Part shown: positions 7,169 through 32,615 of the stretch, piece after piece | How positions within the stretch are numbered: position 1 is the stretch's first letter | Layout of the letters: each line of letters begins with the position of its first letter | Assembly (NCBI GenBank): GCA_948567375.1 | Contig: OX419758.1 | Location: forward strand, 439,001-503,000 | Length of the DNA: 64,000 nucleotides | Source: Lunularia cruciata | Taxonomy: Eukaryota > Streptophyta > Marchantiopsida > Lunulariales > Lunulariaceae | Reading direction: 5' to 3' | The notes under the pieces: generated by a model | Seen by the model: only the letters and a program-made list of their open reading frames with translations | Told to the model about the DNA's origin: nothing | The model's database searches: none | Program-made: the position numbers and the translations under genes

Positions 7169-8248
7169 ACTACTACATAAAACAAGACTTTCATACTATA
7201 TATTGTGTCATAGAAAGTATTGATGCAAGGAAAAATCAAATGGTATATCAATTCTTTTGGAAACGGTCTATTCTTTTATAAAGGAGAAAAAAGTTACAAA
7301 ATGAAACTATAGGTAAAAAGTATTCATACACTTAATTATGCATAGACTTAGATTAATAAACCATAATAGTAGGTGCTATTACACCAAAGCAAGTCTATTT
7401 TAAGCCAAAAGTAGATTATTTCAAAGCAATTTAAAATAAGACCTATGTACGAGCTCTACAAAAAGAAAGTGAAACATATTAATCAAAGGAGAAAGACTTG
7501 CATCTTCACTAGACATGGGGAAATGAAAAGATGTATGAATTACTAGATTTGAATACAAACAAGCTTGTATTAAGTAAGGATGTGGTTCTTAGGAAGTAAT
7601 TAAAGCTCAAGTGAGAAAAATGTGAAAAAGATATAAGTTCTTATGTCTATATTTTAATCATTTGAATCGATAGACTTCCACAAGATGGATAACCTAGAAT
7701 TGAAGATGAAATTAATACAAAATGTTCCTTACAATTATAAATGAAGTTAAGAATATTTATATTGGAACAAGATCATTTAAATAGAATTAAGTATCATCAA
7801 GAATAATGAAATATGGTAACTTGCACAAAGCATGAAAGTAAAGAGATATGGAGCAAATGAATTGAGCATAAATTAAGCAAAAATATTAAGCTGTATTAGT
7901 TACTCAAGGATAATATAACAAGAGATCAATTAAATGAGTCCCTTTATCTCATAGATAAGATAGAAACTATGAAGATAAGAATGGGTCTATCTATAAATTT
8001 TAAAAGGAATGTGTTGTAACTAGATGTAAACAAGGCTCTTTAGAATTGAAAATTAGAGGGAGTCCTTTGGATTGAAATAAATATAAATTAAGGAAGCAAT
8101 CAAGGAGAATTTGTTTTGTAAACCTATGAAGATATTATGTGGACTTAATCAAGCTCCATTGACTTTATATAATTATATTCATGTTTATTGGACGATAATG
8201 GAATTTGAGTAAGGTTCTCTTATCATTTGTTGTGTGTCTAGAGCGTCG
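7169..8248 (+). pseudogene. Ty1/copia pol relic (integrase end and RT) in AT-rich DNA
   Basis: Two short copia signatures are readable on the plus strand. At 7,543-7,596 the translation LDLNTNKLVLSKDVVLRK matches the conserved copia stretch at the integrase/RT border (consensus ...KxxxSRDVxFxE). At about 8,113-8,175 the frame reads FCKPMKILCGLNQAPLTLY, matching the RT motif KxLYGLKQAPRxWY. About 500 bp lie between them with no intact frame, consistent with an old decayed RT fingers region. No LTRs are recognised. The relic stops at the edge of the B1 terminal repeat (8,249). Confidence 0.6.
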
Positions 8249-8893
8249 TGCGTAAATACATCGCTACACAACATACATCGCTGTCAACATCATACACTAT
8301 AGAAACACAACTCACACATAAGTCATACATAGACTCTAAAGTGCCACAATAATCAGATTGCTTACCACTCTCAACTCAACTCAACTTAACTCAGATCTAT
8401 AAATTGCCAACAAATAGGCACTGATTATAGTCAAGGTACACCCACTCAAGCATAGAGAATCCAGGTGACGCTCGCCGGCCTCTGTCCAACATAGCCAGGA
8501 ACTCAAAGGCCACTCAACATCAGAGAAGTGAGCTCTCTGGAGCTCACTTCAAAACTATACCCCCTGGACTTGAGCTAGCCTGGAACCCTAATGGTCCCGC
8601 TGACGGCACAGTCGATAGTGTGAATGGTGCAAAGTGACGGTGGGCCCCACCGTGAAGTCAATACCCCAAACACAAAATCTGACCGTCGAAAAGTAGTCTT
8701 TGAGAAACTATTGAAATAACTCTAACTACTATCACTAGAACTCTAGTGTCCGAGCATCTAGATGCGGCACTACAAATGGCGTGACAGTTGTTGTGCATAT
8801 ATACATTGCTACACAACATACATCGATGTCAACATCATACACTATAGAAATAGAACTCACACATAAGTCATACATAGACTCTAAAGTGCCACA
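8249..8893 (-). repeat. 3' terminal repeat (LTR) of B1, with 100-bp repeats at both ends
   Basis: On the minus strand the unit starts TGTGGCACTTTAG at 8,893 and ends at a CA dinucleotide at 8,249. The equivalent unit in B2 (26,009-26,661) stops at the same base, so this is a true element terminus. Within it the outermost 100 bp are duplicated (8,249-8,348 and 8,794-8,893), separated by 445 bp containing a short palindrome-like GAGCTCTCTGGAGCTC. A purine tract suited as polypurine primer adjoins the unit at 8,894-8,910 (minus strand, AGCTAGGGGGG). An alternative reading is that the real LTR is only 100 bp and this is a TRIM-like pair. Confidence 0.65.
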
Positions 8894-8910
8894 ATCGCCC
8901 CCCTAGCTGG

Positions 8911-9990
8911 CGGTTAGGTCCCTCTAACTCCAGATAGCCATCTACTCTAAGTATATGGTATACCCTCCAATGGGCAAAGATCAAGAGGTCGGGTGCTATG
9001 GAGCCCCATTGTTAGTCGCTTGTCTGCAATCTATACCATATAAAGAATGAACTAGCTATATATCAAGTACATCTAGGATATAACCACTATCCCTGAGGAA
9101 CCACCGTGAAGGGAGAAGTCATACATGCCATATGCCATCCTCTCGAACAGCTATCACACACTAACATAATAGCAGCTCCACCAAAAAAGCCACATAACAT
9201 ACACCTCAAGCCTGCACGTACAAGTGCCAAGCTTGGGTCCATAGTAACATCAATGTATGGGAGGTGGCATGGCGCACAATTGTGCACATGATCCTTCCAA
9301 ACAACACCATCACGTCCTTCTAACACAAGGACTCCAGATGGCAAAACCTCACGCACTCTCAAGATAGTGCGGCCTATAGAAACATCAAGTGTCGTTGGTG
9401 TTGTCTACTATAGATATACATAGTTGCTTGGATGAAATCAACGGATCAAGGGTCTATAACTTCCTCCTCGAATGGTAGCATAGCATAAAGTATCTCTATG
9501 CTGAGCAATCGCCAAGTTCTCAAAGGTCATCGGCATCACTCTCCAAAAGATCTCTGCCCGTTGAGAACATGCGCTCATCCATACATCGGGGTCATCCAAG
9601 TCCAAAACTACAATAGCATTTCGACAAATGGCTACAGATAAATTTGGATCTTGTCCATAAAGTAGAAAGTATGGAGAGAAGGATGCTAAGGAGGCTTGCC
9701 GGCTGAACCGATAGCCCATGGCCAACCAAGGTAACTAGAGATCCCAATCTCCCAAGTGGCCTCTCTGCAAACCATACTTTTGCATCCTCTCTTCACCATC
9801 TGAACCACTCTTTGCTAAGCCATCTGCCTTAGGGTGATCTCGGGATGCAGTACGATGATCAATCAAAGCTTTGTCACACTAGACCTGAAACTCCCTAAGA
9901 ACTTTGTACCCTGATCAGTCAAAACCTCAACTAATGCACCAAAATGACTAAGAACTCGATCCAAGAACAAGTAAGCTGTCCCTTCACTAG
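8911..9990 (-). pseudogene. B1 integrase C-terminal half plus PHD finger
   Basis: Reading the minus strand from 9,990: a fragment with LTDQGTKFLGSF (second catalytic Asp region of the integrase core) at about 9,870-9,985; then GYRFSRQASL and SPYFLLYGQDP at 9,640-9,725, typical of the plant gypsy integrase C-terminal part; then VREVLPSGVLVLEGRDG at about 9,310-9,360. This is followed by a PHD finger at about 9,070-9,230: CMLC, eleven residues, CDSC, four residues, HMAC, then WLYPRC after an in-frame TAG. The last knuckle Cys is Tyr in this copy but Cys in B2. PHD fingers bind histone H3 tails; here one occupies the place where chromoviruses carry a chromodomain. Frameshifts and stops make this a pseudogene. 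Confidence 0.75.
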
Positions 9991-10337
9991 ACCCACATTT
10001 TTTTGTTTTTTTATGGTTAGTAGTGTTTAAGAGACAAAGTAAGCACGGAAAAGTCGAATTGCAAACAAAGAAGGGGTGAAAGTAACTTCGGAGGAAAACC
10101 GAAGAAGCTGACATTGGATCCAATGATGGAGGTACTCGGAAGAAGAGTACGCCGGAAGTAGGCCGAAGATCATCATCTTCGGGTTGGAAAACGCAGGAAT
10201 GATGAAGACCGTTTAACAACCTCAACACGTGGCAAGAAAGTACATTCAAGAAACGGCGGGGGTAGAAGAAGCATGTCTTGATAGTAACCGGGAGTGCACG
10301 CAGAAAAGAGAAACTCACAGACAAAATTGACTGAAGA
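9991..10337 (+). promoter_or_regulatory. A1 ORF2 leader with pyrimidine tract
   Basis: Family A homology begins at ACCCACATTTTTTTG, directly joined to the broken B1 integrase. The same start, GGTACCCACATTTTTTTG or a close variant, precedes ORF2 in the copies at 19,695, 20,898 (minus), 31,485 (minus) and 50,090. A T-rich tract followed by AG resembles a 3' splice acceptor. That would suit expression of ORF2 from a spliced subgenomic RNA, as proposed for env-like ORFs of Athila-type elements. This role is inference. Confidence 0.45.
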
Positions 10338-12890
10338 ATGACTACAATTCCAAGCAATATAAAATTGCGACTGCGCAGGGGGAAGTTGAATTCGTTGAGT
10401 AAATTTCCAATTCCTTTGAGTAGTCATCCTACAGGAATGCATGTCCGAAAGCCCGTCGAGAGTGAAATTTTCCAAAACCCTGAGGGAGTTAGAGTGTCTC
10501 ATCCAGGAGAGGGGCTGATCTTCCAACAGCGTCAAACTAGAGAACAAATCATGGTGAAGAAGGTGGCCAACGTGCTAGCAATAAGAGGTTTTGCAATTCG
10601 AAGGGTAGATGTAGTAGCTAGGATCGAAGTCTTGGTTAGACTTCATATCACCTTTTTAGCATGGAACTGGAATTTCAGTTTCTCGGGAGTAATGGCAGAG
10701 ATCCCTGCCAATAATTGTGAAGAGGGTCCCGAACTGGAGGGGAAGAGAGGCAATCCGGCTCGATGGACTGAGTCGGATTGGAAGTTAGTCCTGGGGAGAG
10801 AAGCAGGAGAGCCAACAGGAATCACCTTCTGTTGTTGGAAGTGTGATGCTGCAGAGGAGACGGCGGAGATTTGTAATTCATTTTTCGCTCCAAGAACTAC
10901 GAATGGTTACAAGGTGGAGTCCTATCGAGACCCGATCCGAAGAAGTATCGTAGGGGCGATGATGGCCATGTTCAAGCCGGAGCAAACAACATACGTAACC
11001 ATGCAGCATGCAGTCTTCTTCCACCAGATGTTTGTAGGAGTACCCGTGAATTGGGTGAAGTGTTTTCATCACCAAACAAGGCAGATGGTAGTGAATTGGC
11101 AAATGGGCTCGCCACCGCATTATTTTGCACCATTTGCAGCACATTTCTACTTCGGCCTAAACTTGCTCTCTAAAGACAAGCGGCATCATATGGTCTCCCA
11201 CATGCACCCTGATTTGAGACAAGAAGCAGACGAAGAGGAGCGACAATATATGCTTCAGCTGCGGGCGAATGATGAATACTTTGCGAGAACGGGACAGTGG
11301 AAGATCAAAGATGTGGCCAGTCCAAAGACAAAGAAGCGAAGTAAACCCGAAGAAGCCAAGTCGTTGCCCATACAAAGAAAGACTCGAAGGCTGATGTTGA
11401 AGACCACTAACGTCGTGAGAAGAGCATCTTCGGGATCGGAGTCGGATGAAGAAACTGAGTCACAAGAAGAGGATTCAGAAGAAGAAGAGCTCACGTTAAA
11501 GAGTGAGGAGTCGGGTAGCGAAAGTGATGGAGAGCCCGAAGTCTAGCAATCGGTGGTGGTGAGTGAAGCTGGCAAGGCAATGGTGGAGAACAAGCCAAAA
11601 CCCAAAGCAAAGAAGGAGTATCCCGTGGGGCCGAGTTCAAGAGGCAAAGACGAAGACAGTGCCGACATGATGAAGATACAAAGATCACGACTTCGGATGA
11701 AGGAGCTGATGACGGAGGAGAAGACTCCAGACAAAGATGGCAAGGAAGAAGCAGAACACTTCATCGGGATATCGTATTTGACGAAGGTAGTCACACCATT
11801 GCTGGAGCTGTTAAAGGAGAATCAAAGTGTAATTCTCCAAGATTGCAGGAAGGGGATGAACAAATTGCAGGTGGTGAAGCATCTATTGAAGGAAGTGCAG
11901 GAGCTGCAGGAACAACAAGTCTGAAGAAGCGTGGAAATTGAAGATCTTCGGAGGGAGGAAGACTCGAGGAAGAAACTGCTGAGAGTGCTACAAGGAAGAT
12001 GCGCAGAGAAGGAGAAGGAATTGCAGAAGCAAGCCGGAGAATTGAAGGAGCATGCGATGTGGCTTAGCACGATGAAGGAGGAAGTGAGTGATGTGCACAT
12101 CAAGAATGTCCATTTGAAGGCAATGACCATCGTGATGGAGCAGGAGTTGGACAGCTTGAAGAAGAGTGTCGCAGCAAAAGATCAAGCATGGCAGAGAGAG
12201 TTGACGTCCAGGCAAGAAGAAGAAGAGCGATTGTGAGAACTTGTCAAGAGCGTGGAACAATAGAATATGCAATGTGCAGGGGAGAAGAAGATGCTCGCTG
12301 CAGAATATGAAGACAAGTTGAAGATGTATCGAGCGGAGTTGAAGGTGGAACGTTCTCGAGGATATGCATCGGAATCAGTAGGGGACATTGCGGGGAAAAT
12401 ACAAGCAATCTTAAGCACGGAGGCTGAAGGAAGATTGGAAGAAGCTCGTCTGCATGAGTTGAAGTTACTTGTGCAGGAGACTCGGAAGCAAAGAGCCAAG
12501 GACGTGGATATGAATACCTTGCTAATTCGGTTGAGAGAACGCGTAGATAGAAAAATGTTGGAGGTAGAAAATAATGTTAGTCTTAGGCTAGATTTAGTCA
12601 ATTCAGAGTTAGAGAAAATTCGGAATAGTGTGACAGAAGAGAAGAAACCCGATGTTGCAGAAGTAGGAATTCAGGTGTCATTAGACTTGCTAATTGACAC
12701 ATTAGAGAAGAGTGGGTCGGGAAATAAGAGTGTAGATAGATTACCCGTGAGCTCAATTGTAGATTGTAGTAAAGAAGTCGTAGAATTAGTAAAGAAATTA
12801 GTAGAATCAGTCATACCCGAAGAAGGTGAAATAGCAAGAAGATCATCGAGTTTGGAAGCCGATGATGAAGTCGACATCGGATCGAGATAG
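10338..12890 (+). pseudogene. A1 ORF2: family A 3' ORF of unknown function, four in-frame stops
   Basis: One frame of about 850 codons, interrupted by TAG at 11,544-11,546, TGA at 11,922-11,924, TGA at 12,234-12,236 and TAG at 12,261-12,263. Every stop is one C-to-T change away from a CAG or CGA codon. Residues 1-330 form a compact domain rich in Trp and aromatic residues (FLAWNWNFSFSG, ESDWKLVLGREAGEPTGI, VNWQMGSPPHYFAPFAAHFY). A basic stretch (SPKTKKRSKPEEAK) follows, then a very acidic Ser/Glu region. The remaining 450 or so residues are charged, Leu-rich predicted coiled coil. No signal peptide or membrane segment is visible. By position it corresponds to the env-like ORF of Athila-type retrotransposons, but it looks like a soluble structural or nucleic-acid-associated protein. 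I do not recognise the family; related copies occur at least seven more times in the window. Confidence 0.7.
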
Positions 12891-12901
12891 AAGTCAATTT
12901 T

Positions 12902-12921
12902 GAGATAGGAAAGGACAGATA
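12902..12921 (+). other. Polypurine tract of A1
   Basis: A purine run (GAGATAGGAAAGGACAGA) lies just upstream of the predicted LTR start TGAAAC. The equivalent position in other A copies reads GAGATTTAAAGAGG. This is the expected site for plus-strand priming. Confidence 0.6.
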
Positions 12922-13687
12922 TGAAACAATAGCTTGTCCCTTGGGATCTATAGGTAGGAAGAGATGTTAGGAAGTGGTGCTTAGGTAGGCAAGTCTGCCG
13001 TTTGCTTCAGTATTTAAGTGGAGCATTTGTAGTACGATGTTATTCAGTATTCCAATTTCTGAAGATAGATAAAGCGAAGTGTTGTTCCCAGTACTCATCG
13101 CTTAAGCTTAATTCTGATTGTCAATTTCGTGTGTGTATTTGTGAGTGTGTGGAGAATTCCAAAGAGCAAGTCAGTGTGTTTGTGGATGTTGGAATCTATA
13201 GCCTTGATCTTCATTCTGTGTGTTTGATCCTGAGTGAAGTGCATCGGAGCAATGCCTTGACAGATCTGAGAGGAATTGTAGTGTTGTTAGTATTTTGCAT
13301 TGGTGAGTGCAGCACGAAGTTGATGTGAAGTAATTTTGATCGAGGGAGTTGTGCCTTCAATGGAGGGGTGGAACACAATTCTGAGGCAAAATCAGTCTTT
13401 GCAGTGAAGTGCCGTCTTCATGAGAATTTGAATCATCACAATCAAGAGTTGTTTGGACAGAATTGACTATGATGTGATTACATGTGTGTATTCATGACAA
13501 CTTGTCAAGTTTGTGAGCTTGTTACTCTCTTTTGGGTGTAGTTTCTACCTGAGAGATTAAAGAAGCAATCAAGAAGAACTGCAATTGTGACTTTTGACTT
13601 CTTATTTGACCAATTCTGCGTAGTATCTCTGCAGGAACGAACTTTACTGACCCGATTACCGCAAAAGTGATATTTGCCGGGTTGTCA
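12922..13687 (+). repeat. 3' LTR of A1
   Basis: Starts TGAAAC and ends GGTTGTCA, 766 bp. A TATA-like TATTTAAG lies at 13,011-13,018. Internal blocks such as TGTGTTTGATC and GAGAGGAATTGTAGTG (about 13,219-13,290) are shared with the other family A LTRs at 24,117, 32,616, 37,436, 52,610 and 54,511. The sequence beyond is B1 pol with no primer-binding site, so this is a 3' LTR or the retained half of a recombinant. Confidence 0.75.
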
Positions 13688-15300
13688 TAGCCACCCACAA
13701 CACCAGTGCAAAGATAGTCCATCACTAAGACATCATCATGAATGTCTTGCTGAACTGTACCAATATCTTCACTCTCTGGATCTGTGACCTCAATAACTCC
13801 TCCTGTATGCACTGAGAGAGATACCACCAAAGCCTTTGCAAATATACACAGAAAGGCTGATGCATGCCAACCTGGCACCATCTCCTCATCTATCTCACCA
13901 TGCCAACGTACTCCGGTCTGATCTTGATGGTTGGGACGTGGGTTTCTACTCAACCCATCTGCATCATGGTTCACCACTCCAGGTCTGTGAACAATCATGA
14001 AATCATACTCTTGTAAAATCAGAGCCCATCGTGCAAGCTCCCCTGAAAGCTTGTTGGACTCCATCAACCACTTCAGTGGCTGATGATCAGTGATGAGAGT
14101 GAAGGGGTTACCAAATAGGTAACATTGGAAATGTGCTATTGCCCAAATTGCTGCCAAGCACTCTCCCTCATATGAACTATACTTTGCCTCCGCTGAATTG
14201 TTGGAGCGATTAGCATAGGCCACCACAAACTCCTTCTCCTCATCATCATGTTGGGTGAGCACCGCTCCAAACCCCAACATACTCCAATCAATGTGAACCT
14301 GAAATCCCCTAATAGGTCTCCTCAAAATGGGAGCAGATGTCAACCTCTCCTTGAGCTCTACAAAAGCTCTCTCCTGCTCATCTCCCCAACACCACTCCTG
14401 TGTAAGCTTGGTCAGCTTCGTCAAGGCCTTGGCAATGGCACTAAATCCTCTAACATAACGGCGATAGAAGTTTGCCAACCCAAGGAATGCTCGCACTCTT
14501 CTCACATCCGTAGGCCGAGGAATACATGCAATAGCCTCCACCTTGGTTTGCTGAACACCAAGTCCTCCGGAGTAGATAGTGTGACCCAAATACTCAACCT
14601 GCTTGTGGAAGAACCTACACTTCCCATGATGTAGTTTGAGTCCATGAGATCTCAACCTCTCAAACACCTCCAACAACTGTCTCTCATGCTCCTCCACAGT
14701 AGTGCTATAAACCAATATAACACCGAGCAAAATCCAATCCAGCTAGGATCTTGTCCATGACCCTCTGGAACTCAGTAGGAGTGTTCTTTAACCCAAATGG
14801 TAAGAACCTCCACTGATATAACGCATCTCTTGCTGTGAGGATCAATAGCCCAAAATGTTGTCTTGGACTTATCCTCCTTCCTGATCGGCAACTGATGATA
14901 TCCTGCTCAAAGATCCAAAGTACTGAAGATCTTTGCATGCCCAATAGCATCAAAAATATCTTCCGGTGTAGGCATGGCATACCGATCAGCCCTGGTCTGT
15001 TGGTTGATAGGACAATAATCTCCACACATCCGCCTATCTGTATAGTTGCCATGCATATCCTTCTTGGTTGGCATCACTGTCACTAATGCATACTCTCCAT
15101 GTGAAATCTCCACCAAACCAGCCTCAAAAAGGTCACTACTCCGGCTCTAAATCAATGTCCTCTCCATGTCACTATAACGATATGGGCGTCAGAAAATTGG
15201 TGTATTGCTAGTCAGCTCAATCTGTATACCAGGTCCCTTTAGAGCACCGAAATCTTTCATACTGAAGGCAAAACAACTCGTGTGACTCCTCAAGAACCTC
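13688..15300 (-). pseudogene. B1 reverse transcriptase and RNase H
   Basis: Minus strand. RT begins near 15,260 (KGPGIQIELTS, PYRYSDMERTLI, then MCGDYCPINQQTRADRYAMP at about 14,970-15,040) and continues through the fingers and palm. The catalytic YIDD is missing: an 11-nt deletion at about 14,713/14,714 joins CYI directly to the sequence after the Asp-Asp pair, which B2 retains as CIDDILVY. The thumb follows (LEVFERLRSHGLKLHHGKCR, FLGLANFYRRYVRGFSAIAK). Then comes RNase H: IDWSMLGFGAVLTQHD, YSSYEGECLAAIWAIAHFQ, LITDHQPLKWLM. The frame runs on to DYLCTGVVGG at 13,690, where it is cut by the A1 LTR. The integrase zinc-binding domain, present in B2, is lost here. Confidence 0.9.
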
Positions 15301-15729
15301 CATACCCTCCGTCTTTCCTCTCCAGTAAGCTTGGGTCCAAGATCTGGCTCCCAATTATCCTCTATAACTGTAGTAGGAGTGGAAGACGTACTGACTGACT
15401 GCTACACTGGGCCCTTGGGAGCAATGGTGTCATGCTCCCGACCACTAGAGGTCCCAACCTCTGTTTGAAAAACTCCCTCCACTCTGGCTGCAAGCTCCAC
15501 ACATCCTCTAGATGCATCCCATGTGGACCAAGGGTGTAATCCAAGTAGCCCACGCTCACCTAGATGGACTCCAAGTAGACCACTCTCCCTAGTAGCTATT
15601 GGATGTGTCCCAAGAATACCATGTCCACTCGGTCCATCGCCCCCAGCATGTGCTTGAATCGTCTTGATAGGCACAGGGCTCACAAGTGTCCGAGTGGTGA
15701 TGCTTATCAAGCGCATCCTATGCTGCTTT
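15301..15729 (-). pseudogene. B1 linker between methyltransferase and RT
   Basis: A Gly/His/Leu-rich spacer including two similar short phrases, LLGVHLGE and LLGLHPWS, and HDTIAPKGP, all present almost unchanged in B2 (29,620-29,990). No domain is recognised. Conservation between the two copies shows it belongs to the ancestral polyprotein. Confidence 0.55.
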
Positions 15730-16570
15730 GCCAAGCCAAGGCTCACAATCTAGGTCAAACAGTTTAGGTCCATAGCCAGACCTAACACCTGACGCCTGGA
15801 TGCCTCTGACACTAGTGGAACAGCGGTAATATTGGTGCAAAAACCCATCGCCCGCTCTCTCATCAACGTTGGGCTCCACCAACTACTATAACTGTGAGTC
15901 TTAAACAAGTCCAGGTCCTCCCTCTCAAAAAGCATGAGAGCCTGGGAAACTCATGGGTGTAGGAAATGCGGCTCTAGGCCGTCCAACTAGGTTCACCACT
16001 GCCATAGGTGACCTATCAGCCACTACCACTATCTGAGACTGACGCCCAACATCCAAGATATCATCAACAAGGATGTGGTCAAGTTGCTGAATCCCAGCAT
16101 AAGCGCGTTGTAGAACCTCTCTAGGTAAGAGGTTCGTCCACCAAAGACAAAGACGATGAGCCCGTAAGTTGGAGAAACAGACTAATGAACCTGGAGATGT
16201 CGTAATATCCGTAACATCTCCCAAAACACACCAGAATGAGGATCCTAAAGACCTAATCCTCTACCAGCACTGTATGTCCCTGACATGGCCATCCAGAAAT
16301 CACCAAGTGAATAGGCCCATGTCTCTCTAGGTCATGCGCCCCCAATAAGGAAATGTCTCATGGTAGGGCCTTCTGGTAACCTCTGACTGCTAACATTGGT
16401 AATAACTCCGGATACCGATAGGCCAAGTGTGCCACATGATGTAGAGAGACTTGCCTAGCAGTCTCATCTCTCTCTATATACAAGTACCTCCGTATACCCG
16501 CCTGTAACACCGCAACTAGTCCGGTGTTGATCCCACCAAACAACTCCAATAGGCATATCCCCTCTACTGG
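15730..16570 (-). pseudogene. B1 C5-cytosine DNA methyltransferase domain (DNMT3-like) inside the retrotransposon polyprotein
   Basis: Canonical C5-MTase motifs occur in order on the minus strand. Motif I is LLELFGGINTGLVAVLQAGI (ELFGG at 16,532-16,546). Motif II is YLYIERDETARQV. Motif IV is GPIHLVISGWPCQG, with the catalytic-Cys PCQ at 16,280-16,288. Motif IX/X is RERAMGF ... SRRQVLGLAMDLN at 15,754-15,860. The spacing before PCQ and the C-terminal MGF...T...R-x-x-LG pattern resemble DNMT3 more than MET1 or CMT; DRM enzymes have a rearranged order. The domain follows the protease in the same frame and precedes RT. This copy is dead: an in-frame TGA lies just before motif IV, further stops follow, and about 150 bp covering motif VI (ENV) is deleted. 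In the active element it would methylate cytosine in DNA in the nucleus; target and context are unknown. Confidence 0.85.
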
Positions 16571-17335
16571 ATATTTCCAAGCAATGAGTGTGGTATCCAA
16601 AGGTGTCAAAGCAATTGCCTCTAGAGGCTCATCCTCACACTCATCTCCTGATGGTACGAAGGCTTCACTCCAAGCTTGCTGGACCAACTGATCTGCATGT
16701 TGTTGCAATGCCTCCTCTGAACTCCACAATGGAACATCCAAGGTGGATGGAACAATCCCACTCCTACTCCAAAGCCGAGTGATCTCCTCTGGTATTGGAG
16801 TATCCTCTACATGGGCGTTCCCTTCCAACAAGTCACAAGGCCAAGTAACTACACCACTGAAAGCTAAAACTAATGTTGACATGGTCCCGGACTGTAGTGA
16901 GCCAAGACTGTCACTACTGAAGCGTACTGGTAGGCAACATACCCGTCCCTCACCAGACCGCCAACCATGTCTATAAGAGGCTATTTCCTCCCAATAGTCA
17001 ATGCTAAAACCCATGGGGTATAACACTGCTTCCCCAACTAGCACATCATATGACTCAACTATCGTTGCAATAGCCTGAACTCTCACCACCGAGCTATCAG
17101 TCGGATGACTAGGCTGAACATGGACAACAAGCTCTCCATGTGTGATGTACTGTGTTGAACCACTACCTAGAGATGTCTGGGTCTAAAATAGACACCTCTC
17201 CACATCGGTCTTCCGTAACTCCAAACCGACAACTGCAACCTTCCCCAACATAAGGGGTTGCGCACCAGAGTCTAACAAGACTCTTTGTGGTGTATAGACC
17301 TTCCCTGAAGGTCCCACCAAACAGAAAATCTCCCT
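16571..17335 (-). pseudogene. B1 aspartic protease and protease-methyltransferase linker
   Basis: The retropepsin active site appears as VLLDSGAQPLMLGK, with DSGA at 17,261-17,272. The C-terminal protease signature YDVLVGEAVLYPMGFSIDYW follows at about 16,985-17,045. A single open stretch of the minus strand (17,089 to 16,358) carries the protease end, a linker of about 100 residues and methyltransferase motif I. This is direct evidence that protease and methyltransferase belong to one polyprotein. A stop just downstream of the DSGA region separates it from the active-site part. Confidence 0.82.
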
Positions 17336-18363
17336 CTAGTTATCCAATAGGACAACACCAGGTATAAACCGCGCTCTCTCAAAGGCCAGTCTAGCTTGCA
17401 ACTCCTCTAGTCTAGCCGCTAATGCCTGCCATAAACCACTGGTCGCTGAACGGATCCCATGCTCCTCAACCAAGTCAGCTCCACTACCAACCACCTCTGC
17501 TCTAGTAGTATGAAATGCACCATCCCTACTCTCACACAATGTGGCAGCCAACCGGAATATTGGGGTTGGGTCAACTCCCAATGTAAACATATCACTGGCC
17601 AAAAACAAAGGACGCTGCATAATCAGCTGAGCCGCCCCCAACATCATGCTAGACTCAGTCTGTGTAGTAGCAGGTGGCTGACTAGCAGGTAGTCCATCAT
17701 GTACTCCATCACCACCTACCACACTTGCACTAGGACATCTAGGAACCATGGATGTTGTCTACAATGCCTCAGATAGCGTGAAAGACTGGGGAAGTCTGAC
17801 TTGTCTCCCAACCTCTCCTCTCTGTGGGTCCAACTCCATTGATGCTCCTCTAGGCTCTAGAGCACGTGCTACACTCCTAGTCACTATTGTAGATGCATCC
17901 ACTTGTGTTGCTCCGCTTATGAAGTCCAAAGCATCTCTATCACCAGCATATGAGGTGGAAGCCTCAGCACCCAAATCTGATCTCCTCTAAGCAATAGCCA
18001 TACTAGCCAATCTCTACTCCAACTGCTCAATCCAAGTAGCCATTGTTGTGTCAGAAGTAAGGGCAAGTACTGCACCCCTACTAGGTGTAGATCCTCTACC
18101 ACCACCTCTACCACCATGTCCTCCATGACCTGGTTCTCCTCTACTACCAGCCATAGCAGCCCTACCACTCCGTAACTCCGGGTGTAGGTCAAAACACCAG
18201 TCACTAGTGTGACCAACTAACACGTTGATCATATGTAGCAAATCCTGCCCAAAGCATGATGTGATGAATTGTGTGAAACAATGCTTTGGTAATATCTGGA
18301 CATGAAAGTCCCAATGGTTTGGCGGAAGTGGATTTGGTGGTCCATAAATTCCATCTATCCTAT
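17336..18363 (-). pseudogene. B1 gag-like 5' region
   Basis: Minus-strand fragments between primer-binding site and protease. Near 18,095-18,160 there is a Gly-rich, RGG-like segment (GHGGHGGRGGGRGSTPSR), followed by ATWIEQLE and a predicted helical, Ala/Arg-rich region with several stops. No retrotransposon-gag capsid domain and no CCHC zinc knuckle are visible. The region is only about 1 kb, so capsid sequence may have been deleted or have diverged beyond recognition. RGG-type motifs often bind RNA, which could substitute for a nucleocapsid; that is inference. Confidence 0.5.
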
Positions 18364-24116: not shown

Positions 24117-24986
24117 TGACAACCTGACAAATATCACTTTTGCAGTAAGCTGAACTCTCCACTTTATTAGAACAAAGAATTACCAACTATTACACCAAAT
24201 TGCAAGTGGATGAGATCGGTCGAGTGGTTTCAGTTGGAGATGGAATTGCACGTGTTTATGGAATTGGGTAAGTAAAGTTTGTTCCCGTAGTGATACAAGT
24301 CGGAAATGTTCAAATACGAAGTCAAACAATAACATTGTAGTTCTTCTTGGTTGCATCTTTAATCTCTCAGGTAGAAACCAAACCCAGAAGAGAGTAACAA
24401 GCACTGACTCGCAGTCTTGTCACAAATTCACACTTCTTAATCACAACTCCTTCAATTCTTTCCAAACAATCTTGATTGTGATGATTCAGGCTCTCCCAAA
24501 AACGGCACTTCACTAAAAAATGACTTTGCTTCAAAATTGTGTTCCCCCCCTCCACTGAAGGCACAACTTTCTTGACCAAAATTGCTTCACATCAACTTTG
24601 CACTGCACTCACAAATGCAGAATACTACTAACACTACAATTCCTCTCAAATCTGTCAAGGCATTGCTTCAATTGCACTTCACTCAAGATCAAACACACAA
24701 AATGAAGATCAAGGCAGTGGAATCCAACATCTAACAAGCACACTGACTTGCACTTCAAATTTCTCCACACACTCACAAACACAAGTACAACGTTGATACT
24801 CGAAATCAAGCTTAAGCAACGAGCACTACTTCACAGTACTTTGCTTTATCTATTCTCAAAAATTATGAGCATTGAACAACATGATGTTGCGAATGCCACT
24901 CTTAAATAGTGAACAAATTGACAGTTCTAACAACTATACCATTCTACAACAACTCTTCTAACCTGTAGATCCAAAATGAAAATGCA
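24117..24986 (-). repeat. LTR of A2, carrying an organelle DNA insertion
   Basis: Ends GGTTGTCA at 24,117 (minus) and starts about 24,986 after a purine tract (GAGATTTAAAGAGG, minus, 24,987-25,003). It is 870 bp, about 118 bp longer than the other family A LTRs because of the atp1 insertion. ORF2 C-terminal sequence lies upstream and PBS plus gag downstream, so this single LTR is shared by two element bodies, as in a tandem recombinant. Confidence 0.78.
24149..24267 (+). pseudogene. atp1: Mitochondrial atp1 fragment (NUMT) inside the A2 LTR
   Basis: The plus strand reads [19 protein letters not shown], then [20 protein letters not shown], without a stop. This is the N-terminal region of the mitochondrial ATP synthase alpha subunit. 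The flanking bases rejoin the LTR: other family A LTRs run from TTTTGCAGTAA directly into AAGTAAGTAAAGTTTG (54,525-54,555; also 37,450-37,480 and, reversed, 13,640-13,675) with nothing between. The insert is thus about 119 bp of organelle DNA captured by this copy only. Its frame is intact, which suggests a recent capture. It is antisense to the host LTR and not a functional gene. Confidence 0.9.
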
Positions 24987-25007
24987 CCTCTTTAAATCTC
25001 AAAATTT

Positions 25008-26008
25008 TTACCAATCTAATCCGATGTCTACTTTGTCATCGGCTTTCAAAGCCAAACCCAATGTAAATTTACTTCCTACTACCATGTCTTCGGGTTTCAC
25101 AACTTCTAATTCTTCCACTAGATCCAGCAATTCTCTTTCTTGATCTGAAATTCCACTAATGGGTAACTTATCTAACTCCTTATCTCCCGACCCACTCTTC
25201 TCTAATGTTTCTATTGCTAAATCCAAAATCATTTGCACTCCTACTTCATCTACTTTGGGTTGGGCTCTAACATCCTTCCGAATTTTATCTATCTCCAACT
25301 TTACCAAGTCTAATCTAATGGTGATATTATCTTCTACCTCTAATATCTTCCTATCTACACGAGTCCTAAGACTTATCAATAGCACATTCAAATCTGTATC
25401 TTTTGCTTGTCTTTGCCTTGTCTCCTGCACCAACAATTTCAACTCATGCAGCCGCGTTTCTTCAATTCAAACATTGGCCTCTGTACTTAACATTGCGTTC
25501 ATCCTGAGGACAATCTCCTTCAATGGCTCCAATCACCTTCAATGGCTCCAATCACATTTTTCTTTCTCGCTCTCGATGTGCAAGCCAATCCTCCTTGTAC
25601 ATTGCCAACTCTACTTCAAACTCGGCTTTCAACATTTCCTTCTCCTTCTCCTTCTGTACAATCTTCTCGTCCTAATTACAAAGTAACTCTTGTAATCGCT
25701 CTTCTTCCCTATATTGTGCTACTAACTCCCTTTGCCAGAGTTGCTTCTTCTCTTCTATGCTCTCCATGACTCTATCGAGCTCTTGTTCCTTTGCTGCTAC
25801 CCTCACCATAGCATGGATAAGTTCTACTCTTGAATCAGCAAACTGCTGCTTCAAAATCTCATACTCTACTACTTGTCTCTCCCTCACTATGTCACTCTTC
25901 CTAACAAGCTCCTCTTGATATATCACTTCTCTCTTCAAGTCTTCAATTACCTGAGTCTTCACTACTGCCTCTGCTCGCAGTACTTCACTTTCCTCCTCAC
26001 CTCTGTTG
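25008..26008 (-). pseudogene. A2 ORF2 C-terminal coiled-coil region
   Basis: Minus-strand frames carry LKLLVQETRQRQAKDTDLN, DRKILEVEDNITIRLDLVK and LAIETLEKSGSGDKELDKLP, closely matching A1 12,450-12,760, plus an upstream coiled coil (EEERLQELLCN and neighbours) matching A1 11,900-12,240. It is cut at 26,008 by the terminus of B2; the N-terminal part of a family A ORF2 in the same orientation reappears beyond B2 at 30,747. Confidence 0.78.
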
Positions 26009-26661
26009 TGCATATATACATCGCTACACAACATACATCACTGTCAACATCACTATAGAAGCACAACTCACACATAAGTTGTACATAGACTCTAAAGTGC
26101 CACAATAATCAGATTGCTTATCACTCTCAACTCAACTCAACTCAGATCAGTACTTGATCTGTCACTCTATAAACTGCCAACAACTGGGCACTGATTACAG
26201 TCAAGCCACACCCACTCAAGCATAGAGAATCCAGGTGACACTTGCCGGTCTTTGTCCACCATAGCCAAGAACTCGAAGGCTCAACATCGGAGAAGTGAGC
26301 TCTCTGGAGCTCACTTTGAAACTATACCCCCTGGACTTGAGCTAGCTCTGAAACCCTAACGGTCCCGCTGACGGCACACTCAACAATGTGAACAGTGCAA
26401 AGTGACGGTGGACCCCACCATGAAGTCAGTACCCCGAACACAAAATCTAACCGTCAGAAAGTAGTCTTTGAGAAACGGCTGAAACAACTCTAACTACTAT
26501 CACTGGAACTCCAGTGTCCAAGCATCTAGATGCGGAACTAAAAATGGCATGACAGCTATCGTGCATATATACATCACTACACAACGTACATCGCTGTCAA
26601 CATCATACACTATAGAAGCACAACTCACACATAAGTCATACATAGACTCTAAAGTGCCACA
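26009..26661 (-). repeat. 3' terminal repeat (LTR) of B2
   Basis: Same structure as 8,249-8,893: 653 bp, minus strand TGTGGCAC to TATATGCA, with the outer repeat present at 26,009-26,104 (4 bp shorter) and 26,562-26,661. The purine tract GCTAGCTAGGGGGCAA (minus) adjoins at 26,662-26,677. It abuts family A ORF2 on the left. Confidence 0.68.
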
Positions 26662-26677
26662 ATTGCCCCCTAGCTAG

Positions 26678-27965
26678 CGGTTAGGTCCCTCTAACTCCAT
26701 ATAGCCATCTACTCTAAGTATATGGTATACCCTTTAATGGGCAAAGATCAGGAGGCCGGGTGCTATGGAGCCCCATCGTTAGTCGCCTGTCTGCAATCTA
26801 TACCATATCAAGAATGAACTAGCTATAGGTCAAGTACATCTAGGACATAACCACTGCCCCTGAGGAACCACCGTGAGGGGAGGAGTCATACATGCCATAT
26901 GTCATCCTCTCAAACAACTATCACACACTAACATAGTAGTAGCTCCACCAGAAGAGCCACATAACATACACCTCAAGCTTGCACGTACAAGTGCCAAGCT
27001 TGGGTCCATAGTACCATCAATGTTTGGGAGGTGACATGGCGCACAATTGTGCACATGATCCTTCCAAACAACACTATCATGTCCTTCTAACACAAGGACT
27101 CCAGATGGCAAAACCTCGTGCACTCTCAAGATAGTGCAGCCTATAGAAACATCAAGTGTCGTCGGTGCTGTCTGCTGTAGATAACATAGTCGCCTGGATG
27201 AAATCGACGGATTGAGGGTCTATAACCTCCTCCTTGAATGGTAGCATAGCGTAAAGTATCTCTATGCTGAGCAATTGCCAAGTTCTCAAAGGCCATCGGC
27301 ATCACTCTCTAAAAGATCTCTGCCAGCTGAGAACATGCGTTCATCCATACATCAGGGTCATCCAAGTCCAAAGCTACAGTAGCATCTCAACAAATGGCTG
27401 CAGGTAAATCTGGATCTCGTCCATAGAGTAGAAAGTATGGAGAGAAGGATGCTAAGGAGGCTTGCCGGCTGAACCGATAGCCCATGGCCAATTAAGGTAA
27501 TTGGAGATCCCAATCTCCCAAGTGGCCTCTCTGCAAACCCTACATGCAAACCAGTCAACGGTAAAGGTCCGGTGAAGTCCAAACTCCAATGATAACCCAA
27601 TCCCATGATAGGTAATGGGTGTAACTATGGCATAGGAGCATTGAATGATGCTCTAACTCGGTCACAAACCATACATCTAGCAACAAACTGCTATACCTCG
27701 GTGTGCATATCGCACCACCAATAATGACTCTAGAGTAAGCTATATGTACGCTTTACTCCAAAATGTCCTAGCTCCTCATGAGCATGATGGACCAACTGTG
27801 GTCTTTGTGCTGGAAGTGGTACTACTTGCACTCTACCATCCTCCCATACATGCAAAAGGTGTTTACCCTCCAATCTGAACCGTCTGGCTTGCTGAAGAAC
27901 ACGGTCTCTCTCCTTGGCCTCAACAGTGCCACCCACAACACCAGTGCAAAGATAGTCCATCACTA
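26678..27965 (-). pseudogene. B2 integrase and PHD finger
   Basis: Minus strand. The zinc-binding domain has HEELGHFG at about 27,745-27,790 followed by CMVCD near 27,670. Core start is GYHWSLDFTGPLPLTG at about 27,550-27,606. An internal deletion then joins to the C-terminal portion (27,420-27,500 GYRFSRQASL equivalent) and VHEVLPSGVLVLEGHD at about 27,080-27,125. The PHD finger at about 26,840-27,000 has CMLC, CDSC, a His-x2-Cys after an in-frame TGA (in place of Trp), and the terminal WLCPRC, which keeps the Cys lost in B1. Between B1 and B2 all eight C4HC3 ligands are accounted for. Confidence 0.78.
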
Positions 27966-29619
27966 AGACATCATCATGATTGTCTTGCTGAACTGTACCA
28001 ATATCTTCACTCTCTAGATCTATGACCTCAATAACTCCTCATGTATGCGCTGAGAGAGATACCACCAAAGCCTCTGCAAATATACACAGAAAGGCCGATG
28101 CATGCCAACTTGGCACCATCTCCTCATCTGTCTCACCATGCCAACATGCTCCGGTCTGATCCTGCTGGCTAGGAAATGGGTTTCTACTCAACCCATCTGC
28201 ATCACGGTTCACCACTCCAGGTTTGTGAACAACCGTGAAATCATACTCCTATAAAATCAGAGCCCATCGTGCAAGCTTCCCTGAAAGCTTGTTGGACTCC
28301 ATCAACCACTTCAGCGGCTGATGATCAGTGATGAGAGTGAAGGGATTACCAAATAGGTAACATCGGAAATGTGCTACTGCCCAAATTGCTGCCAAGCACT
28401 CTCTCTCATATGAACTATACTTTGCCTCCGTTGAGTTGTTAGAGCGACTAGCATAGGCCACCACAAACTCCTTCTCCTCATCATCATGTTGGGTGAGCAC
28501 CGCTCCAAACCCCAACATACTCCAATCAGTGTAAACCTGAAATGGTCGTCCCTTGATCGGCCTCCTCAAAATAGGAGTAGATGTCAACCTCTCCTTGAGC
28601 TCTACAAAAGCTCTCTCTTGCTCATCTCCCCAACACCACTCCTATGTAAGCTTGGTCAGCTTCGTCAAGGCCTTGGCAATGGCACTAAATCCTCTAACAT
28701 AGCAGCGATAGAAGTTCGCCAACCCAAGGAGTGTTCGCACTCTGCTCACATCCGTAGGCCGAGGAATACGTGCAATAGCCTCCACCTTGGTCTGCTGGAC
28801 ACCAAAGTCCTCAGGGGTAGATAGTGTGACCCAAATACTCAACCTGCTTGTGGAAGAACCTACACTTCCCATGATGTAGTTGAGTCCATGAGATCTCAAC
28901 CTCTCAAACACCTCCAACAACTGTCTCTCATGCTCCTCCACATTAGTGCTATAAACCAAAATGTCATCAATACAGCACCGAGCAAAATCCAATCCAGCTA
29001 GGATCCTATCCATGACCTTTAGGAACTCAGCAGGAGCATTCTTTAACCCAAATCGTAAGAACCTCCATTGATATAACACATCCTTACCGTGAAGATCAAC
29101 AGCCCAACTTATCCTCCTCCCTGATCGGCAATTGATGATATCCCGCTCAAAGATCCAAAGTATTGAAGACCTTTGCATGCCCAATCGCATCAAAAATCTC
29201 CTCCAATGTAGGCATGGCATACCGATCAGCCCTAGTCTGTCGGTTGATAGGATGGTAATCTCCACACATCCGCCTATATGTATAGTTGCCATGCATATCT
29301 TTCTTGGATGGCATCATTGTCATTGATGCATACTCTCCATGTGAAATCTCCATCAAACCAGCCTCAAAAAGGTCACTACTCCGGCTCTGAATCAATGTCC
29401 ACTCCATATCACTATATCGATAAGGACGTTGGAAAACTGGTGTGTCGCTAGTCAACTCAATCCGTATACCAGGTCCCTTCAGAGCACCCAAATCCTTCAT
29501 ATTGAAGTCAAAACAACTCGTGTGACTCCTCAAGAACCTCCAAACCCTCCGTCTTTCCTCTCCAGTAAGCTTGGGCCCAAGATCTAGCTCCCAAGTATCC
29601 TCTATAACTATAGTAGGAG
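27966..29619 (-). pseudogene. B2 reverse transcriptase and RNase H
   Basis: Minus strand. RT runs from about 29,510 (KGPGIRIELTSDTPVFQRPY, MCGDYHPINRQTRADRYAMP) and keeps the catalytic CIDDILVY at about 28,950-28,975. RNase H lies at 28,249-28,587 (TDWSMLGFGAVLTQHD, YSSYERECLAAIWAVAHFR, TDHQPLKWLM). Several frameshifts interrupt it, and a short indel is present in the palm near 29,100. It is better preserved than B1 in the active site and differs from it by a moderate number of substitutions. Confidence 0.88.
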
Positions 29620-30000
29620 TGGAAGACGTAATGATTGACTACTACATTGGGCCCCTGGGAGCAATAGTGTCATGCTCCTGACCACTAGAGGTCCCAACCT
29701 CTGTGTGAAAAACTCCCTCCACTCTGGCTGCAAGCTCCACACGTCCTCTGGCTGCATCCCATGTGGACCAAGGGTGTAATCCAAGTAGCCCACACTCACC
29801 AAGATGTACTCCAAGTAGACCACTCTCCCTAGTAGCTACTGGATGTGTCCCAAGAATACCATGTCCACTCGGTCCATCGCCTCCAGCATGTGCCTGGATC
29901 GTCTCAATAGGCACATGGCTCACAAGTGTCCGAGTGGTGATGCCTATCAAGCGCATCCTACGTTGCCTTGCCAAGCCAAGGCTCAAAATCTAGGTCAAAT
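29620..30000 (-). pseudogene. B2 linker between methyltransferase and RT
   Basis: Same Gly/His/Leu-rich spacer as in B1 (AHAGGDGPSGHGILGTHP, LLGVHLGECGLLGLHP, EHDTIAP). No known domain. Confidence 0.5.
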
Positions 30001-30746
30001 AGTTCAAGTCCATAGCCTGACCTAACACCTGACGCTTAGATGCCTCTGACACTGCTGGAACAACGGTAATACCGGTGCAAAAACCCATCACCCGCTCTCT
30101 CTCATCAGCGTTGGGCTCCACCAACTGCTGTAACTATGAGTCCCAAACAAGTCCTGGTCCTCCCTCTTGAAAAGCATGAGAGCCTGGGAAACTCATGAGT
30201 GTGGGAAATGCAGCTCGAGGCTGTCCAACTAGGTTCACCACTACCATAAGTGACCTATCAGCCACTACCATTGTTTGAGATTGACGCCCAACATCCAAGA
30301 TATCATCAACAAGAATGTGGTCCAGTCGCGGAATCCCATCATAAGCACGCTGTAGAACCTCTTTGGGTAAGAGGTTTGTCCACCAAAGATGAAGACGATG
30401 AGCTCGTGATCCCACTCTGGCTGCATCTAATAATACAGCATGTCCCACCAAGAATGGACCTGATGTGTACTCACCACCAATCCAGTGCAAGAATCACCCA
30501 TCAAAGGAACGTTCTCCAAAAGGTAAGTTGGAGAAACAGACTGATGAACCTGGAGATGTCGTAGTATCCGTAACATCTCCCAAAACACACCAGAAAAAGG
30601 ATCTTGAAGACCCAAACCGTGGCCCGCATGTGTATTTCCTTGACATGGCCATCCAGAAATCACCAAGTGAATAGGCCCATGTCTCTCTAGGTCATGCACC
30701 CCCAGTAAGGAAATGTCTCTTGGTAGGGCCTTCTGGTAACCTCTGA
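30001..30746 (-). pseudogene. B2 C5-cytosine DNA methyltransferase domain, truncated before motif IV
   Basis: Starts at the junction 30,746 within the segment preceding motif IV, then reads RDISLLGVHDLERHGPIHLV and ISGWPCQG (PCQ at 30,640-30,648), FSGVFWEMLRILRHLQ, YLLENVPLMGDS (motif VI ENVP at 30,505-30,516), LLDAARVGSRAHRLHLWWTN (motif VIII) at about 30,375-30,435, and MGFCTGIT plus KRQVLGQAMDLN (motif IX/X) at about 30,010-30,095. Motifs VI and VIII, deleted or damaged in B1, are present here, and the Arg codon at the B1 stop is intact. Motif I is missing through truncation. Together the copies show the full canonical motif order between protease and RT. Confidence 0.85.
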
Positions 30747-31490
30747 CTACTTTTGCCTTGAACCTGGAAAACTTAGGTTCCAATTCCATGCCAAAAAAGT
30801 GATCCAAAGTCTACACATGACTTCAATCCTGGCTATCATATCTAACCTTTGAATGATTGCATTTCTCATTGCAAGTGAAGGACTCTTCTTCTCACCCTTC
30901 ATTGGCATTGTGCAATCTCTAACCCGTAGTATTTTAAAGATAATTCTATCATCTCTTGGTCTCAAGATCCTAACTCTTTCAGGATTGTTAACATCAAATG
31001 CTTGAATGGCTTGGCTATAGGAACTCCTTTGGGTTGATTACTCAGTGGCTTAGGATACTTGTGTGACCTTTCAAAATCCCCTCAATGAAGGCCCAATTTT
31101 ATAGTTCTCTATTGATCAATCATTCCTCCATCCCTCTTCATTGAGACTCACCCTTTTTGCATGAATTCATCCTAGCATTATGCAAGTTAGTAGTTTGTGC
31201 CTTGTCCACCATTTTCTTGCCTCTCCTTTCTTGATTGACCCATCCGTAGGAAATTTGTTATGCCATCTTTGCATTGGGTCGATCACCCCAAGACAAAGTT
31301 CCCTTACTTTGGGTTTCTCTGGCCGGGTCTAATCCAAGTACTTTGCTTCTAACATAAAGTCACTTTACTTTGGGTTACAAACCAAAGACACAATTCTTCT
31401 CCTTCCAATGTCATTTGGTTTCATTTGGTTTTAATACACTTCTTCAACATAGAACAAAAACAAAAAACCCAAAAAATGTTGGTACCAAAG
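30747..31490 (-). pseudogene. Family A ORF2 leader and N-terminus (split from A2 by B2)
   Basis: Minus strand: the leader ends at GGTACCAACATTTTTTGGG (about 31,470-31,488); ORF2 N-terminal residues lie at 30,750-30,965 (SLAMRNAIIQRLDMIARIEV, ITFLAWNWNLSFPG). Orientation and content continue the ORF2 at 25,008-26,008, although about 1.2 kb of the middle is missing. B2 therefore appears to have landed in, or been recombined with, a family A ORF2. Confidence 0.68.
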
Positions 31491-31499
31491 ATTGCATGT

Positions 31500-32598
31500 C
31501 TTTTATTATTGTAATTGTAGAAGAAGAAGAAGGAGATGCAAAGAGATCATTTAGAGGTGAAGGATGAGTTGTAGGTGAAGTATTTCAGTGATGAAGTCCT
31601 ATAATTGAAAGAATGGTTAAACCAAGGAGAAGAGGAAATCAAAGTACTTCAGGTTGATATTGTACTTTAGAAGAAGAGCTTAGATGATCTGCTAGAGAGT
31701 CTTGAGAAGCATGGAAGTGCTCTTGACAACAAGAAGAATTGAAGGAGCAAGAGTTTGCATTATAGAGATTGAAGGAGGAATTCAATGACTCTCAACTTGA
31801 GGTAATAAACTCCAAGGCCATTGGAGTTGTAAGTTAGTAGAAATTGGAGAAATTAAGAATGGTTGCAGCAGAGAAGGATTGGGCTTGGCAATGAGAATTG
31901 ACAAGTAGAGATTGTGAAGAAGAAAGGTTGTGGGATCTGATTAAAAGTGCAAAAGCTCATATTGTTTACCAAGTGTAAGAGAGAAAATATGAGCAATGAA
32001 GCATGCTAAAGAAGTGAAGATGCTTGGAGAGGAATTGGAAGGAGAGAGTACTCAAGAGGAGTCATTGTTGGAGAAGCCATTGAGATCAATGGAGGAGATT
32101 GTCAGTAAGTTGAAGGTGGTATTCAGCACTAAAGCCAAAGTACAATTGGAAGAGTCAAGATTGCATCAATTGAAATTGCTTGTGCAAGAAACTCATAAGA
32201 GGAAGGTGAAGGATGTAGATATGAATAGTTGTTAACTCTTTTGAGAGATAGAGTAGATAGAAAGATCATTGAAGTAGGAGACAATGTATGCCTCAAACTA
32301 GATTTACTTAGAACAGAGTTAGATGAACTTAGTAGTATTATCAAGGTAGAAAATAGAGGCAAAGTAGTTGAAGTAGAAGTGACTTACTTGATTCATCTGA
32401 AGTAGCGAGAGTAGAAAAAGAGGAAATAGTTAAACCAACTATGACTTCAGTCAAAGTTTAAACTAAGGATGGCATAGAAGTAGATGAAGATATAGATATA
32501 GTAGATGAACTGGAAGTGTAGGAGGGACTGTATGTACATCAGGTGTAGAAGACAAAGTAGAAGAAGATGTCAAATTGGATTAGGAGTAACTGATTGAG
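31500..32598 (+). pseudogene. A3: ORF2 C-terminal region
   Basis: Plus strand, opposite to the preceding piece. Coiled-coil reading frames include LHQLKLLVQETHKRKVKDVDMN at about 32,160-32,230 and the following Asp-Arg-Lys segment, matching A1 12,440-12,560. Many stops are present. Its 5' end is truncated about 15 bp from the leader of the opposing copy, making a head-to-head junction near 31,495. Confidence 0.68.
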
Positions 32599-32615
32599 AT
32601 CTGAAATGGTAGATA

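Follow-up and report, generated by a model that had tools for sequence, protein, structure and literature searches.

Cytosine methylation is the main defence of plants against transposons. Ty3/gypsy chromoviruses combine the gypsy pol order with a chromatin-reading chromodomain at the C-terminus of integrase and two full LTRs, and they are not known to carry a DNA methyltransferase (DNMT). DIRS elements use a tyrosine recombinase and are not known to make a target duplication. Retrotransposons bearing a DNMT were described by de Mendoza et al. 2018 (PMC5890265). In Klebsormidium nitens, KnitGypsy-Dnmt3 is a gypsy-type element with a DNMT3 and a DDE integrase, its repeats being arranged as in DIRS elements. 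In dinoflagellates, SymbioDIRS-Dnmt3 and SymbioLINE-Dnmt are tyrosine-recombinase DIRS elements or LINEs which, according to that paper, captured their DNMT independently. In yeast, de novo methylation of CG was obtained with the SymbioDIRS enzymes, and KnitGypsy-Dnmt3 gave none, in an assay that the authors judged inconclusive (PMC5890265). A preliminary description of the locus studied here had referred correctly to the gypsy elements of Klebsormidium, but its "dinoflagellate copia" elements are DIRS and LINE elements in the legend and text of the 2018 paper (PMC5890265); a 2025 paper does use "Copia" for dinoflagellate DNMT elements. In the passage of PMC6338049 that treats the point, such elements are said not to be present in land plants such as tracheophytes.

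We analysed a stretch of 64,000 nucleotides from Lunularia cruciata, hereafter the window, which holds two copies of one gypsy-type element. Like the chromoviruses, this element has the gypsy pol order and a chromatin-reading module at the integrase C-terminus, but the module is a PHD finger instead of a chromodomain, the repeats are split where chromoviruses have two full LTRs, and a DNMT is present. With SymbioDIRS-Dnmt3 and SymbioLINE-Dnmt it shares the carriage of a DNMT by a retrotransposon. Its likeness to KnitGypsy-Dnmt3 goes further: a DNMT3 precedes RT in an element of gypsy type (RT-RH-rve), and the repeats run A-coding-B-A-B. The Klebsormidium protein P0200, presumably a KnitGypsy-Dnmt3, also carries its DNMT upstream of RT and groups with the elements in our tree, but it holds DNMT and RT-RH-IN in one frame. 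KnitGypsy-Dnmt3 differs as well in its algal host, where copies are fewer than in Symbiodinium, and PHD finger, protease and readthrough are absent from the main text of the paper (PMC5890265). A DNMT3 in a gypsy-type element is already on record from Klebsormidium (2018). Within the reach of the searches, three features are new: the land-plant hosts, the placement of the DNMT before a readthrough stop and the integrase-borne PHD; no report of a land-plant DNMT element was found in the titles and abstract openings of the open-access papers retrieved.

Two decayed copies in the window

The two copies, B1 (18.2-8.2 kb) and B2 (30.75-26.0 kb), lie on the minus strand, are 91% identical in DNA and have the DNMT domain in common (Table 1). 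Both are decayed, and both are dead. The preliminary description had proposed that a retrotransposon polyprotein bears a C5-DNMT placed after the protease and before RT, and a PF00145 match in B2, homology and the genome copies described below bear it out. The ELFGG and PCQ motifs are found in B1 where they had been read. The open stretch said to contain the protease is real (17,098-16,361) and comprises the post-protease part, the linker and DNMT motif I; the protease motif itself lies upstream of it, behind a stop. Pfam gave no protease match within the window itself, and among the proteins scanned Asp_protease_2 passed the Pfam cut-off only in the relatives P0139 and P0146. The proposed comparison with PF00145 was successful for one copy: the piece 30,780-30,430 of B2 scored 28.9 bits (cut-off 22, E 1e-6), and for B1's own pieces nothing was found. 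The homology of B1 was accepted because the relative P0133 aligns with it from the end of gag through the protease to motif IV (47% over 642 residues, E 1e-144). B2, when read through, matched database relatives down to E 1.2e-108.

In B1, the part upstream of the 5' limit at 18,216 is missing, and the DNMT is broken by a stop before motif IV, by frameshifts and by a 117-nt deletion at 16,165/16,164 that removes motif VI. B2 kept motifs IV to X and lacks the motif I side, with one frameshift. Downstream, B1 gave Pfam matches to RT_RNaseH (2.7e-33) and RVT_1 (5.8e-8) at 13,525-14,730 and to PHD at 9,278-9,090 (1.9e-5, 25.0 bits, cut-off 24). The PHD of B2, at about 26,970-26,836 and with a stop inside, was identified by reading, Pfam giving no PHD match in B2's piece. 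The 3' repeats B-A-B are kept in both copies.

Table 1. Features of the two element copies, in window positions.
Feature	Position	Strand	Basis and remarks
B1 end of gag and protease	17100..18216	-	tblastn with P0133 and L018 ORF1; stops interrupt
B1 protease motif DSGAQP	17,272-17,255	-	stop between motif and open stretch 17,098-16,361
B1 DNMT3-type domain	15711..16560	-	motifs and homology
B1 motif I ELFGG	16,546-16,532	-	
B1 motif IV PCQ	16,288-16,280	-	
B1 motif X	about 15,797-15,768	-	
B1 UAG CAG UCA, readthrough-context stop between DNMT and RT	15396..15404	-	
B1 RT and RNase H	13690..15362	-	Pfam and tblastn
B1 interruption by other repeats	9993..13689	.	nested insertion; about 450 nt of element lost
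B1 integrase end and PHD finger	9066..9991	-	PHD about 9,203-9,069; stop near PHD end
B1 3' split repeats	8245..8894	-	B 8,894-8,789, A 8,786-8,350, B 8,349-8,245; blastn with L036 A and B; D9 repeats
B2 DNMT3-type domain, beginning shortly before motif IV and running to ORF end	29645..30753	-	PF00145 E 1e-6
B2 UAG UAG UCA, equivalent stop	29636..29644	-	one context base changed
B2 RT, RNase H, integrase, PHD	26833..29635	-	frameshifted; about 295 nt lost
B2 3' split repeats	26003..26662	-	B 26,662-26,556, A 26,554-26,106, B 26,105-26,003

Other repeats surround these copies. A more distant relative at 4,527-6,505 (minus strand) retains RNase H and integrase parts at 65-68% DNA identity, and its DNMT part was not found within the window. 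Another gypsy-type RT and integrase lie on the plus strand at 59,287-61,094, with 24-37% residue identity to ORF2 of L018, a complete relative presented below. Several old repeats, about 65-75% alike when compared with each other, fill the window (for example 24,262-25,496, 31,513-33,376 and 54,508-55,681), and one of these old repeats is the one nested in B1 at 9,993-13,689. No tRNA or Rfam match was obtained within the window.

Copies of the element in the host genome and their UAG junction

The genome to which the window belongs comprises 565.8 Mb in 74 contigs. A scan with PF00145 started from 2,161 first-look candidates and left 123 scored places, each above the cut-off. Of these, 28 were read: eight as cut loci, which proved to be four host genes and four elements, and 20 more (L031-L050) chosen for long open frames. 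By reading, the host genes are DNMT3 twice in split exons (L023, L026), DRM (L024) and CMT (L025); host and element DNMT3 appear to coexist in this genome (L023, L026). When the RT start of the element was used as the genome query, at least 150 scored places with 97-100% identity were obtained from 20,400 candidates, the latter being a candidate figure and not a copy number, and 18 of the 150 RT matches listed keep the 1,037-residue ORF2 frame. The preliminary description had reckoned with a one-off capture, to be recognised by genome copies that lack the domain. The copies carry it: all three picked by RT alone have the DNMT upstream, with none lacking it in this small sample, and RT is in place in all 20 copies picked by DNMT. 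Of these 20 long copies, 11 have no stop in the 480 codons that precede the UAG, and 12 have all five DNMT motifs in frame. Gag, PR and DNMT form a single open frame in L031 (1,428 aa), L032 (1,428 aa) and L033 (1,292 aa), and ORF2 frames of 1,037 aa ending in PHD were read in L035 and L036. As judged from these sequences, the element is high-copy and fairly recently active, and the DNMT is a regular part of it.

The genome copies read A1-leader-gag-CCHC-PR-DNMT3-UAG-RT-RH-IN-PHD-B1-A2-B2, where A and B denote repeats. The element measures about 9.95 kb, arranged as A1(450)-coding-B1(107)-A2(450)-B2(107), so that the left end is A only and the right end B-A-B (self-repeats of three copies), and it ends in TG...CA. 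Target duplications of 4 bp, read by eye, were present in all eight copies having both ends (ten were examined, two of them without one end). A1 and A2 are 94.9-99.1% identical in the seven of ten copies where both align, which indicates, with no rate applied, that the insertions are fairly recent. The two full identical LTRs of a canonical Ty3/gypsy element are absent. Despite the split, DIRS-like repeats, the integrase is of the rve (DDE) type, and this together with the 4-bp target duplications sets the element apart from DIRS elements. We regard this structural account as nearly certain.

The DNMT does not lie inside the Pol ORF. In all 24 loci L027-L050, it is followed by TAG and then CAGCCA, CAGCTA or CAGTCA, and UAG CARYYA divides DNMT from RT in every one of the 27 genome copies read (20/20 long copies, 4/4 further loci and the 3/3 chosen by RT). 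A UAG separates them in both window copies as well; B1 fits the CARYYA context and B2 (TAG TAG TCA) departs from it. RT continues in the same frame after the UAG in 23 of the 24 loci, the DNMT frame itself being broken in the remaining one (L048). UAG CAR YYA is the type I (tobamovirus-type) readthrough motif (PMC3542737). The junction of the element has the same motif, but its stop lies between Gag-PR-DNMT and RT of a retrotransposon and is known here from sequence. Since copies of one family share descent, weight is given to the agreement of two distant lineages: in L018, whose DNMT domain is 52% identical, the junction is TAG CAA TCA. Four related proteins (P0123, P0124, P0137 and P0189), seen as protein sequences only, end about 100-140 residues past motif X. 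The preliminary description is thus corrected in that the DNMT sits in the Gag-PR frame, ahead of the UAG. Because it ends at a UAG in readthrough context, it is probably made at Gag level and not at Pol level.

Class of the methyltransferase and relatives in other organisms

As to the class of METHYLTRANSFERASE, a profile of 17 relatives searched against PDB retrieved DNMT3A/3B first (2.3e-16), with DRM (2.4e-8), HhaI (2.8e-4) and DNMT2 (about 1e-3) at lower ranks and neither DNMT1 nor CMT among the 54 profile matches up to E 1. With an AlphaFold2 model of P0004 (mean pLDDT 69.9), the best 50 of 1,042 Foldseek rows were all DNMT3 (target TM 0.40-0.79). The motif order is linear in the element DNMTs, unlike that of DRM; distant relatives retain motifs I, IV (Cys), VI (Glu), VIII and X, and PF00145 matches relatives as well as B2. 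By profile and fold searches, the domain is of the DNMT3 type, closer to DNMT3 than to DRM, DNMT1, CMT or DNMT2. In a DNMT tree of 39 rows, 37 element DNMTs, those of Klebsormidium included, split from two host rows (100/99), namely a DNMT3 and a DRM from host genes of the window's genome, both on long branches. This tree sets the element clade apart from both host enzymes, each represented by one row, and does not thereby prove a single capture. Copies of the window's genome fall in a 12-row DNMT clade with Marchantia and Calypogeia (100/99); along with the presence of DNMT3, DRM and CMT among the host genes, this points to a liverwort-like plant. At the shallower forks, the DNMT and RT trees agree in grouping the window's genome with Marchantia, then with L018.

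Relatives were sought among 5.8 billion proteins. The B2 read-through gave 135 protein matches and an alignment of relatives gave 301; the named hosts among the matches listed (best 120 each) are Sphagnum, Marchantia polymorpha, Marchantia paleacea, Calypogeia fissa and Riccia sorocarpa. A third search yielded 35 proteins, including Klebsormidium KFL_009030040 (P0200) and gag-PR-DNMT frames of 1,228-1,451 residues (P0171-P0185), 14 of these 15 with a CCHC pattern. Gag, PR and DNMT share one open frame in P0171-P0183, P0185, Marchantia Mp_4g09160 (P0189, 1,278 residues) and ORF1 of L018. By reading, the DNMT runs into RT in Riccia P0032, and the protease runs into the DNMT in Sphagnum P0143. 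The reported absence does not hold for land plants at large, given that relatives occur in Marchantia, Calypogeia, Riccia and Sphagnum, a comparison that covers bryophytes. L018 (CADCWO010000201.1), from an environmental sample, is a complete relative; its contig measures 9,285 bp, and the two ends overlap by 127 nt. Its ORF1 (gag-PR-DNMT, 1,162 residues) is open at the contig start, and its ORF2 (RT-RH-IN-PHD, 1,047 residues) follows in frame after the TAG. This eukaryotic element was mis-binned in the cyanobacterial MAG AVDCRST_MAG81, a contamination of a public genome. A second placement of the domain was seen in a transcriptome protein, P0201 (GHRQ01002908.1), in which RNase H and integrase flank the DNMT and a PHD forms the C-terminus.

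Viral contigs gave nothing with P0001 or alignment query A1; query A3 gave 17 loci with short or partial matches (28-59%), which were taken for prokaryotic or phage methylases. P0004 had no match among plasmids. P0123 gave 333 phage records, every one below 60% identity and with less than 80% of the query covered. In the genome contig collection, A1 had no match and A3 retrieved five loci, namely the element L018 and four Streptomyces.

The C-terminal PHD was called by Pfam in L018 ORF2 (4.3e-10) and in P0201 (1.1e-8); P0198 ends in a Cys-rich stretch for which Pfam gives no PHD call. The solved structures nearest to the PHD are those of the CHD4, PHF12, KMT2D, UHRF1 and KDM5 PHDs, and for this reason it is plausible that the finger reads histone H3 tails.

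A proposed cycle with self-methylation of cDNA, and its alternatives

To look at selection among copies, pN/pS was calculated after pairs below 85% protein identity (out of register) had been dropped. Values were 0.39 for DNMT (153/190 pairs), 0.30 for RT-RH (137) and 0.34 for PHD (101), and 0.52, 0.51, 0.40 and 0.47 for PR-linker, tail, RT and IN. The wrong-frame controls gave 0.47 and 1.03 for DNMT and 0.67 and 0.74 for RT-RH; because this control is weak, within-genome selection is only suggested. Differences of the C-to-T type affect 5.5% of CG, 3.8% of CHG and 0.8% of CHH sites (380 ordered pairs, L031-L050), a per-site rate about 7-fold (CG) and 5-fold (CHG) above that of CHH. This decay is the footprint of methylation followed by deamination, and host enzymes alone would give the same.

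We propose that translation mostly ends at the UAG, producing Gag-PR-DNMT, and that a small readthrough share would carry the RT-IN-PHD extension. The DNMT would then be assembled into the particle in Gag-like amounts and would methylate the new double-stranded cDNA there, while the PHD would steer integration by histone state. New insertions would carry methylation from the start and join chromatin in a silenced state, and such premarking may lower their cost and lessen conflict with host silencing. Taken as a whole (element structure, Gag-level DNMT, self-methylation of cDNA and PHD-guided integration), we think this account reasonably likely. Self-methylation of the cDNA is by itself somewhat short of an even bet. 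More tentatively, and on balance doubtfully, one old capture may have founded a gypsy-type lineage of green plants with a DNMT3 "writer" at Gag level and a PHD "reader" on integrase, its cDNA being methylated before integration. That lineage would have spread from algae to liverworts and mosses and become high-copy in the window's host.

A different, unlikely use of the enzyme would be in trans: once released by the protease, it would methylate the DNA of the host or of other elements, so that competitors are silenced or the element's own promoter is damped. Many copies could yield much enzyme, and the decay at CG and CHG suggests that copies are methylated, but host maintenance enzymes suffice for methylation in both contexts. 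Effects on the host methylome of Symbiodinium are discussed by the 2018 authors (PMC5890265). An argument for action within the particle is that L018 and Marchantia both retain the enzyme fused to Gag and PR, upstream of the stop. It is less probable again that the domain was kept for nucleic-acid binding or structure and does not methylate. The lack of observed activity of KnitGypsy-Dnmt3 in yeast (PMC5890265) and low Pfam scores (26-51 bits in the window and its relatives) would agree with this, but the five motifs retained in distant relatives, and in frame in most of the long copies, argue against it. Slightly more improbable still is that the UAG is not read through, RT being made by re-initiation, by splicing or from copies without the stop. 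In Klebsormidium P0200, and likewise in P0197 and P0198, DNMT and RT share a predicted protein with no stop between them, and a Marchantia gene model, P0191, seems to bypass the junction via a predicted intron; on the other side, in two lineages the stop together with its six context bases obeys the type I rule (PMC3542737), and RT stays in frame at all loci but one. Finally, a host DNMT3 exon captured only once, or lying next to a retrotransposon through accidental nesting, would account for a single broken domain in the window, but this reading has a negligible probability and is rejected given two window copies, the genome copies picked by RT or by DNMT, relatives in other species, a DNMT in one open frame with gag and PR, and a host DNMT3 (L023) that is in split exons and outside the element clade. 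A host gene fragment was likewise rejected, as host DNMT3, DRM and CMT were recognised separately (reading of L023-L026).

Under the proposed cycle with packaged DNMT, concrete mechanistic predictions follow from two features, the Gag fusion upstream of the readthrough stop and the integrase-borne PHD. Marchantia polymorpha is tractable, which makes self-methylation of cDNA by a retrotransposon directly testable. A thriving element with its own predicted de novo methyltransferase would turn the logic of silencing round.
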